A stretch of DNA of 35,781 nucleotides, taken from Candidatus Adlerbacteria bacterium RIFOXYC1_FULL_48_26. GTDB lineage: Bacteria; Patescibacteriota; Minisyncoccia; Phycocordibacterales; SBAW01. This document shows, piece after piece, positions 1,767-16,892 of this stretch. The position numbers and the translations under genes were made by a program. The first letter of the stretch is position 1. Each line of letters begins with the position of its first letter. The stretch lies in NCBI GenBank assembly GCA_001773575.1, contig MEXB01000013.1, forward strand, positions 1 through 35,781, written 5' to 3'. The notes below the pieces were generated by a model. It was not told the origin of the DNA and searched no databases. It saw nothing but the letters and a program-made list of their open reading frames with translations.

Positions 1767-4700
1767 ATGGCAGATAAGAGCGAGACAGTACTAAGAGAGG
1801 AGCAAATCCTTGAGTTTTGGCGGGAAGATAAGACATTTGAAAAGTCGGTTGAAAAGCCAGCCGCTAAGGGCGACTTTGTTTTTTATGACGGCCCACCGTT
1901 TGCAACAGGTCTTCCGCACTCAGGCTCCCTCCTCTCTTCAATAATCAAAGATGTTATTCCGCGTTACAAAACAATGCGCGGCTACCGTGTGCCACGTGTG
2001 TGGGGTTGGGATACTCACGGGCTTCCTATTGAATCTTTGGTTGAAAAGACACTTGGTCTTAAAACAAAAAAAGATATTCTCGCTATCGGTATCGAGAAGT
2101 TTAATGAAACTGCGCGTTCGTTGGTGTTGGAGTATGTGCACGAATGGAAACGATACATCGAACGAGTAGGGCGTTGGGTTGATTTTGATAACTCGTACAA
2201 GACGATGGACAACTCGTATATCGAATCCATCTGGTGGGCTCTTAAGCGTCTACACGGAAAAAATTTAATGTACGAGGGCAAGAAGGTGCTTATGTACTGC
2301 CCGCACTGCGAGACTCCTCTGGCGAAAGCAGAGATCGCAATGGACAACACGTACAAGGATATTACTGAGACTGCAGTCACTGCACGTTTCAAAGTAAAAA
2401 ACCCACAGAAATATAAGTTGCCAGAGAACACATACCTGTTGGCATGGACCACAACTCCATGGACTCTTCCTGGCAACGTTGGTTTGGCTGTTGGTCCAGA
2501 AATGCGCTACGCAGTAGTGCAGGATGGAAGCGCACACTATATAGAGCAAGAAGACGGTGGAGACATAAAGGGAAGCGACCTTGCTGGCATAGAGTACGAG
2601 CCGCTCTTTGATGTGCCCGTACTTAAATCTCCACGTTCGTACAAAGTATGGTCGGCGGGGTTTGTTACGGCAGGGGAAGGCACGGGCATCGTACATACAG
2701 CCGTAATGTACGGCGAAGACGACTTCGCACTTGGTATGAAGGAGAAACTGCCAATGGTGCAGATGCTTGAACCAAACGGCCACTACAACAATATCGTTCC
2801 TGAATTTCTCCGTGGCAAATTTATCAAACAAGGAGAGAAGGAGATTGTCGCAGACCTTGAGACACGCGGTCTCCTGCATAGTAAAGAACCGCACACGCAC
2901 TCATACCCACACTGCTATCGTTGCGGCGCGGCACTTATCTACAACGCAGTTGTGTCATGGTTTTTGAATATTCAAAAAGTTAAGAGCAAGATGCTCTCGG
3001 AGAACAATAAGATCTACTGGTTCCCACAGCATCTTAAACACGGCCGTTTCCACAATAACGTCGAGAGCGCACCCGACTGGACCATCTCCCGCAACCGCTT
3101 TTGGGCGTCACCACTTCCTATTTGGAAGGAGAAGCAGTCTCGGGCAGGGGAGCAGCTTGAAGGAAAAAAACTAATGGTTGTCGGTTCACTCGAAGAGTTG
3201 CTCGCAAAGACTAAAAAGTCTGGCAACAAGTATTTTGTCATGCGCCACGGTGAGGCGAAGAGCAATATTGCTCAGATTTTTGACGGAGGGAAGAACACTG
3301 ACAACCACCTTACTGATGTTGGACGGCAGGTGGTCCGTGCTACATCTGAACAGTTGAAAAAAGAAAAGATCGATATGGTCATTGCGTCGCCAATTTTGCG
3401 TACGCAGGAAACAGCAAAAATTGTTCTTAAGGTGCTCGGGTTGCCGGACACGGCTCTTATGACAGATGAGCGACTCCTTGAACTCCAAGTTGGTATCTAC
3501 GACGGCAAGCGCATTGAGGATTGGAGAAACAACTTTGTGTCTAGACTTGAGCGTTTCAGTAAAGCTGCTGAGGGGGGTGAGACATACGCAGACGTGCGCC
3601 GCCGCGTTGGAGAATTTCTTTTCGAGGTTGAACGCCGTTATAGCGGCAGAAACATACTTATTGTTACGCACGAATGCCCTTCGTGGTTGTTGGACGGCGT
3701 GGCTCGTCATATGACAAACGAAGAAATTGCTGCGGAACGTGATGCGCCTTTTATGCAGCCAGGTACATACAGACCTCTACCATTCACACCCTTCCCTCAC
3801 AATAAAAAATACGAGCTTGATCTCCACCGCCCATACATCGATGAAGTTGTCTTGGTTGATGAAAAGGGAAGCCGCTACGAGCGCATTCCTGAAGTCTTGG
3901 ACTGCTGGGTAGAGTCTGGGGCAATGCCATTCGCTTCTATGCAGTACCCTCGTGACAAATCAAAAGTAAATCCTGAACGTTTCTTCGGCTTAGCTCCAAA
4001 GGGCTACCCAGGCGACTTTATCGCTGAATATATTGCTCAGACCCGCACGTGGTTCTACTACATGCACGCGATGGGCGTGATGTTGTTTGGTAAACGATCA
4101 TTTAAAGCCGTCGTTACCACGGGAAATATTCTTTCTTCTGACGGCACAAAGATGAGTAAGTCGAAAGGGAACTACACCGACCCATACGAACTGATGGATA
4201 AGTGGGGCTCAGATGCGTACCGCTTCTACCTTATGGGTTCAGTGGTTATGCAGGCAGAAGATTTTAACTTCCGTGACGAAGACGTTCGCGAAGTCCATAA
4301 CCGTGTTGTTGGTACATTGTGGAACTCATTTAAATTCTTTGAACTCTACAAAGACAAACTTGATGGCAGTGACTACACACAGAGTGAGCATCCGCTGGAC
4401 CGTTGGGTAATTTCTCTCTTAAACAAAACAGTTGCAGAGACAACGGAGGCGTTTGAAAGATATGACCTTCCTGCAGCAACGCGCCCTATCCGCGCATTCA
4501 TTGATAACTATTCAACCTGGTACGTTCGCCGTTCCCGCGACCGCGCCCGCGGCGACAGTGCTGATGCCATGATGTGTTTGGCAACGCAGAAACATGTGCT
4601 TTTGACGGTAGCAAAACTTCTCGCGCCCATAACGCCGTTTATTACAGAAAGTGTTTCTCGTGGTTTAGGAGAAGAGAACAGTGTGCACTTGGGCAATTGG

Positions 4701-5156
4701 CCGGAAGGCGGCTCAGTTGATGAGCAGTTGCTTACAGACATGCAGACCATTCGTGAGCTCGCAAGTAAGGGCTTGGAACTCCGCGACCGCGCGGGCATAA
4801 AAGTGCGCCAGCCTCTCGCAAAATTCTCGGCTACCTCTTTGCCACACAATGCTACGCTCCATACGATCCTTGCTGAAGAAATCAACGTAAAACAAGTTAC
4901 AGAAGACGCATCGCTTACAGAACCAGTGCTTGATACAAACCTCACGCAAGAACTTAAGGAGGAGGGCTTGGTGCGCGACCTCGCTCGTCGTATCCAAGAG
5001 TGGCGCAAAGAACAAAAGCTTTCTATCAGCGACCGTCCTTCCTACACACTTGAAGTTACTGCTGAAGAAAAACCAATTGCAGAAAAATATCGTTCTACTC
5101 TCATTGCACAAACTGGTCTCCAGGATCTGCAGCTGACAGAAAAAACGAATGCATGA
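1767..5156 (+). CDS. ileS: Isoleucine--tRNA ligase with an internal histidine-phosphatase domain
   Basis: IleRS motifs: DGPPFATGLPHSGSLLSSIIKD, GWDTHGLPIE, DLHRPYIDEV, KMSKSKGNYTDP. Between GSLEELLAK and DLHRPYID lies YFVMRHGEAKSN...ASPILRTQETA...VTHECPSWLL. Confidence 0.95.
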   Translation: MADKSETVLREEQILEFWREDKTFEKSVEKPAAKGDFVFYDGPPFATGLPHSGSLLSSIIKDVIPRYKTMRGYRVPRVWGWDTHGLPIESLVEKTLGLKTKKDILAIGIEKFNETARSLVLEYVHEWKRYIERVGRWVDFDNSYKTMDNSYIESIWWALKRLHGKNLMYEGKKVLMYCPHCETPLAKAEIAMDNTYKDITETAVTARFKVKNPQKYKLPENTYLLAWTTTPWTLPGNVGLAVGPEMRYAVVQDGSAHYIEQEDGGDIKGSDLAGIEYEPLFDVPVLKSPRSYKVWSAGFVTAGEGTGIVHTAVMYGEDDFALGMKEKLPMVQMLEPNGHYNNIVPEFLRGKFIKQGEKEIVADLETRGLLHSKEPHTHSYPHCYRCGAALIYNAVVSWFLNIQKVKSKMLSENNKIYWFPQHLKHGRFHNNVESAPDWTISRNRFWASPLPIWKEKQSRAGEQLEGKKLMVVGSLEELLAKTKKSGNKYFVMRHGEAKSNIAQIFDGGKNTDNHLTDVGRQVVRATSEQLKKEKIDMVIASPILRTQETAKIVLKVLGLPDTALMTDERLLELQVGIYDGKRIEDWRNNFVSRLERFSKAAEGGETYADVRRRVGEFLFEVERRYSGRNILIVTHECPSWLLDGVARHMTNEEIAAERDAPFMQPGTYRPLPFTPFPHNKKYELDLHRPYIDEVVLVDEKGSRYERIPEVLDCWVESGAMPFASMQYPRDKSKVNPERFFGLAPKGYPGDFIAEYIAQTRTWFYYMHAMGVMLFGKRSFKAVVTTGNILSSDGTKMSKSKGNYTDPYELMDKWGSDAYRFYLMGSVVMQAEDFNFRDEDVREVHNRVVGTLWNSFKFFELYKDKLDGSDYTQSEHPLDRWVISLLNKTVAETTEAFERYDLPAATRPIRAFIDNYSTWYVRRSRDRARGDSADAMMCLATQKHVLLTVAKLLAPITPFITESVSRGLGEENSVHLGNWPEGGSVDEQLLTDMQTIRELASKGLELRDRAGIKVRQPLAKFSATSLPHNATLHTILAEEINVKQVTEDASLTEPVLDTNLTQELKEEGLVRDLARRIQEWRKEQKLSISDRPSYTLEVTAEEKPIAEKYRSTLIAQTGLQDLQLTEKTNA

Positions 5157-5730
5157 TGTCATCTCCACTCGCGGAATAGTTCTCAGTAAGCGAACGGTGG
5201 GGGAGGCAAACACACTTGTCTCTATGCTTACGGAAGACCTCGGCGTTATACGAGTGTCTGCACGTTCCGCACGTCTTGAGCGTTCCAAGCTTCGGTATGG
5301 GCTTGAGACGTTAACGCAGGGTACGTTCTCGCTTGTGCGCGGCAAATATGACTGGAAATTAACTGGCACACAAGGACTCTCTCGTCCGTTCCTCCACGCC
5401 TCTATTGCTCAACGTAAAACAGCGGGGAAGGTGAGCCGTCTCTTGATCCGTCTTATCCAAGGCGAAGAGCCTGTCCGCGACCTGTTTGAAGTTATTGTTC
5501 ACGGCCTACTTCATATCTCGCAGGAAACGAACGAAGAAAATCTTCCATATATTGAAGCGATATTGGTTCTACGCATTGTCGCCCAGTTAGGTTATGTCGA
5601 AGAAAAGCAGGAGCTTGGTGTATTCCTCAACACACATACATTTTCAGAAGCGCTTATTGAACAGGCTAAAAAGAATCGGCCACTGCTTATCAGAAGCATA
5701 AATACCTCCCTCGCCGAAACGGGCCTATAA
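5149..5730 (+). CDS. recO: DNA repair protein RecO
   Basis: N-terminal OB-fold-like sequence (STRGIVLSKRTVGEANTLVSMLTEDLGVIRVSARSAR); overlaps the ileS stop by 8 nt. Confidence 0.75.
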   Translation: MHDVISTRGIVLSKRTVGEANTLVSMLTEDLGVIRVSARSARLERSKLRYGLETLTQGTFSLVRGKYDWKLTGTQGLSRPFLHASIAQRKTAGKVSRLLIRLIQGEEPVRDLFEVIVHGLLHISQETNEENLPYIEAILVLRIVAQLGYVEEKQELGVFLNTHTFSEALIEQAKKNRPLLIRSINTSLAETGL

Positions 5731-16282: not shown

Positions 16283-16382
16283 GCTTGAGTCCCAAGGGAC
16301 GCTTTTTTGTCTACGGACACGGGAGCGAAGCCTGAGGGAAGTTCCGGGGATCCACCCCATCAACCACGAGGAAACTCACGTG

Positions 16383-16829
16383 ATGAACAAGACCATTCGT
16401 TCGCTGAACGGCCTGGCCGGTCAGTACAAGACGCCCATCGTCAGCCTGGCTTCGACCACGCTCGCTTCGCGGATCTGTGCCGGCTTCGACCAGCTCCTGG
16501 CCTCCCACACGCAGGGCAAGCTCGGCAAGGATCGGCTCAGGGGCATGCTGGAAGGCAAGACGATGTCGGCCGTCGACTCGGCGCTCGAGATCGCCAACCC
16601 CGCGCAGCGCAAGCAGATCCTGATCGCCGCCGACAAGGCCTGGACCGAGTTCTACGACAAGCGTCATCTCGATCGTCTCATGCACGCCAATGCCGGCCCG
16701 AACCCCTATGCCGACCTGATCGCCGCCTTCGGCGAGACGTCGACTGTGGGCGAGCGCACCAGCAACCTCATCGTCGGCGCCCAGGTGATCGACAAGCAGC
16801 ACGGCTTCGGCACGCTCGCCCGAACCTGA
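16383..16829 (+). CDS. Hypothetical protein; GC-rich orphan ORF
   Basis: MNKTIRSLNGLAGQYKTPIVSLASTTLASRICAGFDQLL...; GAGGAA upstream of ATG; terminator downstream; line 16501-16560 is 39/60 GC. Confidence 0.65.
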   Translation: MNKTIRSLNGLAGQYKTPIVSLASTTLASRICAGFDQLLASHTQGKLGKDRLRGMLEGKTMSAVDSALEIANPAQRKQILIAADKAWTEFYDKRHLDRLMHANAGPNPYADLIAAFGETSTVGERTSNLIVGAQVIDKQHGFGTLART

Positions 16830-16858
16830 CCTTCGACGCCGTCATCTACGGCACGTAA

Positions 16859-16892
16859 CTCCGGAACCTCACAAGGTTTCGGAGTTTTTCTT
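16859..16892 (+). terminator. Intrinsic terminator after 16383-16829 ORF
   Basis: CTCCGGAACCT-CACA-AGGTTTCGGAG followed by TTTTTCTTTTT. Confidence 0.85.

Follow-up and report, generated by a model that had tools for sequence, protein, structure and literature searches.

The isoleucyl-tRNA synthetase (IleRS) encoded in the window, that is, in the whole stretch of 35,781 nucleotides that was analysed, carries a histidine phosphatase domain inside its own chain, and very likely this arrangement reflects a functional link of the phosphatase to tRNA charging that was not previously described. Few enzymes are as conserved as the aminoacyl-tRNA synthetases, and the extra domains that they carry usually serve tRNA binding or editing. 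Both parts of the protein, the synthetase and the phosphatase, are known; their combination, spread and linkage appear to be new. In the open-access literature, a scope that leaves most subscription papers outside, no description was found of a fusion between a histidine phosphatase and IleRS or the valine synthetase (ValRS) in the Patescibacteria (CPR). To our knowledge, these tiny organisms form one of the main bacterial radiations, and hardly any of them can be cultured.

The window corresponds to contig C13 of a parent genome of 630 kb that is 96% complete and whose relatives place it in the Patescibacteria (CPR), and it presents the order argS, ileS and a recO-like gene, all on the forward strand. 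The first of these, encoding arginyl-tRNA synthetase (89-1732, assigned by Pfam and gene order), lies upstream of ileS (1767-5156, assigned by its open reading frame, Pfam and TIGR00392), whose end is overlapped by the recO-like gene (5149-5730), with RecO_N as its only Pfam match. The recO-like product has 193 residues in the window and 271 in a relative (L178). At a distance from these genes, positions 16300-16860 reach a GC content of up to ~65%, contain long overlapping frames in several reading frames and look foreign to their surroundings.

The frame of 1129 residues described in the earlier note is indeed continuous, running from 1767 to 5156 without interruption and in frame through the insert. 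Pfam recognizes in its product tRNA-synt_1 (residues 13-468), His_Phos_1 (490-642), Anticodon_1 (878-1018) and DUF5915 (1038-1126), and the NCBIfam ileS model TIGR00392 gives 766.6 bits, above its cut-off of 621.4. The KMSKS loop (4149-4163), the anticodon-binding domain and the GEDD segment of the editing domain are all present. The HIGH-type motif reads HSGS (residues 51-54, 1917-1928), with Ser replacing the fourth His, normally conserved, and the class I signature, HXGH, or G/AXHH in IleRS2, is therefore absent from the window enzyme. The prokaryotic IleRSs analysed in PMC10485003 display these two signatures only. By its sequence, the window protein is an IleRS despite HSGS, as it presents every other feature of the family. 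Variants of this motif are also found elsewhere: HSGS, HTGS and HHGS in congeners, and HYGS, HHGT and HIGL in other CPR.

The insertion site, a loop between PLPIW and DLHRPYID, is flanked on one side by the conserved IleRS block SRNRFWASPLPIW (3087-3125) and GSLEEL, and on the other by the conserved block DLHRPYIDEV (3819-3848). The spacer at this site comprises 231 residues in the window protein versus 22-34 in unfused IleRSs, which upholds the proposal that the domain had been inserted between GSLEEL and DLHRPYIDEV. On the basis of His_Phos_1, the fold model, Foldseek and the spacer comparison, the best estimate for the branch-1 histidine phosphatase domain is residues ~484-684 (~3216-3818), close to the 3222-3810 put forward in the earlier note. 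The Pfam search that this note had suggested returned both tRNA-synt_1 and His_Phos_1, the latter with E=1.3e-30 and 107 bits against a cut-off of 21.7, which places the insert in branch 1. The four signature segments listed there were likewise located in the frame: RHGE, within RHGEAKSN (residues 493-500, 3243-3266), SPILRTQETA (541-550, 3387-3416), ELQVGIYDG (572-580, 3480-3506) and VTHECPSW (633-640, 3663-3686). Structure prediction also bore out a folded histidine phosphatase, as the AlphaFold2 mean pLDDT was 89.5 when the complete protein was modelled and 95.5 when the insert was modelled by itself, and the best Foldseek matches of the insert in the PDB were the histidine phosphatases PspA (4ij6/4ij5) and PhoE (1h2e), at TM ~0.7-0.77, with 1ebb also among its branch-1 matches. 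The insert scored far under every NCBIfam equivalog cut-off, those for PspA, PhoE, CobC and dPGM included (CobC, 76.8 versus 162.9; PspA, 64 versus 350), and the assignment of a substrate from these models was dropped for this reason.

Histidine phosphatases work through a phosphohistidine intermediate on the His of the RHG motif, assisted by two Arg, a second His and an acidic residue. This branch 1 catalytic set is complete in the window protein. The RHG motif corresponds to R493-H494-G495 (3243-3251), with H494 as the predicted phospho-accepting nucleophile, the second catalytic Arg to R545 (3399-3401, in SPILRTQETA), the acid/base to E572 (3480-3482, in ELQVGIYDG) and the second catalytic His to H635 (3669-3671, in VTHEC). 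Conservation was assessed in 100 distinct sequences (IleRS inserts plus ileS-adjacent homologues) whose pairwise identity averages 34%: R493 and H494 were found in 98 of the 98 inserts covering the site, R545 and H635 in 100 of 100, and the acidic position was Glu in 97 and Asp in two of the 99 sequences counted. In addition, in 35 full-length fused IleRSs the catalytic residues of the phosphatase are invariant, as are those of the synthetase itself. Exceptions are the loss of Glu in a divergent insert (G375) and that of the second His in a ValRS insert (G142). Family f132 frequently has two phosphatases inserted in tandem, and both tetrads were intact in the four proteins sampled. Because the catalytic residues remain nearly invariant at such low overall identity, the active site of the insert is held by selection, and the domain is apparently a catalytically competent phosphatase. 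The earlier proposal of an active phosphatase coupled to IleRS thus gains from both sides: activity is made plausible by a folded domain with a selected active site, and coupling by the insertion itself together with the adjacent genes and the ValRS insertions described below.

The spread of the fusion was evaluated with a profile built from 20 junctions (A1) and searched in whole genomes, a genome being counted as fused when its best E-value was below 1e-60. At this threshold, the fused gene is present in ~156 of the 238 genomes of the window's class (about two thirds) and in ~26 of the 264 genomes of the other classes of the phylum, distributed over some ten families. The profile of the insert across CPR IleRSs that had been called for hence shows that well over a hundred genomes share this architecture. 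About a third of the class members lack the fusion, including one genome of the window's own genus (G028), which has an unfused IleRS; since no copy, whether fused or adjacent, was seen in some members of the class, the phosphatase is not essential. In a GTDB scan, the complete fused matches among those listed came from CPR-named or unnamed MAGs, plus one contig labelled Spirochaetia (L038, PowLak16_MAG37). The latter, whose fused IleRS is of the CPR type and falls within CPR sequences, is probably misbinned or misnamed.

A second line of evidence derives from genomes in which the phosphatase is a gene of its own. In at least nine of them (loci L178 and L243-L250), a separate homologue of the insert lies exactly between argS and ileS, often overlapping the start of the latter; the upstream genes of these split loci that were tested by Pfam are argS, so that the neighbourhood is the same as in the window. 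Where a class member has an unfused IleRS, this intervening gene is often the closest homologue of the insert. One further genome (G563) has an insert-like phosphatase gene still following argS (L262, 2082-2666, reverse strand), with ileS on a different contig. In a tree of 131 phosphatase domains, the operonic genes fall inside the clade of IleRS inserts (98/91), beside fused sequences (95/93); this nesting implies that conversion between the inserted and the neighbouring state has happened.

The histories of insert and synthetase body do not coincide. On a tree of IleRS bodies from which the insert was removed, the fused or unfused label requires at least 12 changes. The bodies of the window's genus belong to two lineages, a single clade being rejected (AU p=1e-21), and those of the family f198 genomes with the argS-phosphatase-ileS order do not form one clade either (AU p=7e-9), both values coming from tests on small sets with groups picked after the trees were seen. 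The phosphatases of these f198 genomes form a coherent set, and those of the window's genus, with L024 left aside, a single clade (96/94), on a single-domain insert tree that is short (198 columns) and whose individual branches need care. In one congener (G001), a body of the window's type is paired with the shortened phosphatase that goes with the second type. As the inserts of the genus constitute one clade and the bodies two lineages, replacement of the IleRS body has left the phosphatase in place; as the trees indicate, what stays constant within a conserved neighbourhood is the phosphatase, and what is replaced is the body.

The association extends to a second synthetase. Histidine phosphatases were found in the ValRS of about a dozen genomes, at the matching site between SRQ..WG..P.WY and DTWFSSG, the IleRS being unfused in several of them. 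The ValRS inserts form several separate groups in the tree of 131 domains, which points to more than one insertion event, and an isoleucine-specific role is weakened by their existence. In an order-wide survey, the inspected large frames carrying the phosphatase were IleRS or ValRS. Other loops may also be occupied: the IleRS of G338 (L263, 667-5382; 1572 residues) contains three phosphatases in three loops, all with the RHG...R...E/D...H set. One fixed insertion geometry was therefore rejected, given the three loops of this protein and the separate gene at nine loci. A few synthetases accommodate several domains or other ones. A GNAT domain (residues 666-764) accompanies a histidine phosphatase in a third loop (916-1087) in the IleRS of G144 (L264, 1138-5490, reverse strand); a serine hydrolase, a NUDIX domain and a phosphatase without Glu occur in that of G375 (L186, 141-4772); a NUDIX domain lies in the editing-domain region of that of G398 (L278, 693-4280); an HAD domain, a serine hydrolase and a phosphatase are found in the ValRS of G326 (L258, 1-3657); and an intein (PF14890) is present in the IleRS of a class member, G577 (L260, 3-3764). 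Such unusual cases are few, the common form being a phosphatase placed in the zinc-ribbon loop.

These observations could be integrated in a model, which we regard as fairly probable on the sequence evidence, in which the window protein would be a bifunctional enzyme: an IleRS with a branch-1 phosphatase (PhoE/PspA/CobC-like) that is tethered to the synthetase, or co-expressed with it, to clear a phosphomonoester linked to charging. Located in the zinc-ribbon loop that precedes KMSKS, the phosphatase would be transiently phosphorylated at H494, with the phosphate held by R493, R545 and H635 and with E572 acting as acid/base, and the phosphoenzyme would then be hydrolysed. Attached to the Ile (sometimes the Val) synthetase or produced along with it, the domain would remove on the spot a phosphomonoester that arises at tRNA charging or disturbs it. 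Because the domain also occurs in other IleRS loops, in ValRS or as an adjacent gene, a precise geometric coupling is less likely, tethering is preferred to a fixed channel, and proximity or co-expression is probably what is needed. As the hosts are two different synthetases, metabolites specific to Ile or Val are disfavoured, and a product common to charging or a phosphate on the tRNA end is favoured since the nucleotide-like CobC and a phosphatase fused to RNase H are among the nearest models. The leading candidate would be AMP or a related nucleotide released by aminoacylation and editing, a tentative guess against which it counts that removing AMP would cost adenosine salvage; the second candidate would be the phosphate on a tRNA end.

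The main rival to this bifunctional model, and one that we judge rather unlikely, is that an active phosphatase of general metabolism has lodged in a tolerant surface loop, is unrelated to tRNA charging, and is guarded from loss in a shrinking genome by its location within the essential ileS. The few IleRS or ValRS loops of relatives that house NUDIX, GNAT, HAD, serine hydrolase or intein domains fit this idea and count against the bifunctional model, as the loops may simply tolerate insertion; so do the different loops in which the phosphatase itself is found and the further stand-alone histidine phosphatases that many of the surveyed genomes possess. However, loop tolerance does not predict that a gene lying exactly between argS and ileS should belong to the same phosphatase clade, nor that the phosphatase should stay with ileS through the exchange of the IleRS body or enter ValRS independently at the matching site.

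The accompanying domains allow a broader and still less probable reading, drawn by analogy, in which the IleRS and ValRS of Patescibacteria would be a chassis for small house-cleaning enzymes (histidine phosphatase, NUDIX, HAD, GNAT, serine hydrolase). The carried enzymes would guard charging from aminoacyl-nucleotide by-products or inhibitors, whether produced by the cell, its host or its neighbours, in the way that stand-alone immunity enzymes defend cells against nucleotide antibiotics of the Trojan-horse type. Within such a general sanitation system tethered to synthetases, the phosphatase would be the dominant component. A PADLOC scan for anti-phage links gave nothing for the window protein.

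A different kind of substrate is contemplated if the insert is a SixA-like protein phosphatase or regulator, taking phosphate off His, Ser or Thr of the synthetase or a partner and thereby switching charging; SixA is reported to act on protein phosphohistidine (PMC7948535). In a same-genus subclade of nine genomes (L153-L161), a clean deletion of ~30 residues follows the catalytic-Glu motif, with RHG, Arg, Glu and His kept, which would open the site and bring it closer to a SixA-like minimal form. Yet the deletion is confined to that subclade, the insert scores 36.1 with the SixA equivalog against a cut-off of 74.5, its nearest relatives are small-molecule phosphatases and no kinase partner was identified, all of which makes this explanation quite improbable. 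Even less credit is given to a catalytically dead module that would stabilise the enzyme or bind tRNA: the domain does occupy the zinc-ribbon position, where the cysteines are absent from the window protein, but many other fused members retain them and, although identity averages 34%, the catalytic residues do not vary. A chimeric assembly or misprediction can practically be dismissed, as well over a hundred independent genomes share the architecture and the insert matches its flanks in both GC content and codon usage.

Returning to the bifunctional model, a phosphatase that resides in IleRS or ValRS, or beside ileS, and is kept through body swaps points to an undescribed step associated with charging, which would concern much of one of the main radiations of bacteria. 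The lineages with the split argS-phosphatase-ileS order represent natural controls.

Among known systems, the synthetase part is type-2-like: type 2 IleRSs (Priestia megaterium IleRS2, 8c8u/8c8v; Thermus, 1ile) are its top sequence and fold matches, and both share the catalytic core, the CP1 editing domain with GEDD, KMSKS and the anticodon-binding domain. The window enzyme differs from them in the ~200-residue phosphatase in the loop ahead of HRPYID. NCBIfam holds no model for a phosphatase-carrying IleRS, though it does hold one for an IleRS with GNAT (NF040702, isoleucine--tRNA ligase, N-acetyltransferase domain-containing), which sets a precedent for an unrelated enzyme domain on IleRS; the window protein, with a phosphatase and without GNAT, scores 280.9 bits against its cut-off of 1999. 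Regarding the insert, PhoE, PspA and CobC (1h2e, 4ij5, 6nru), its best sequence matches in the PDB, have the same fold and the same RHG/Arg/Glu/His site, but the window phosphatase differs from them in sitting inside a synthetase. Finally, the top-scoring NCBIfam model for the insert (86, cut-off 326) is that of the bifunctional RNase H/acid phosphatase (NF005567, Rv2228c type), in which a branch-1 histidine phosphatase is also joined to a nucleic-acid enzyme, there by fusion to RNase HI and in the window by insertion within a synthetase.
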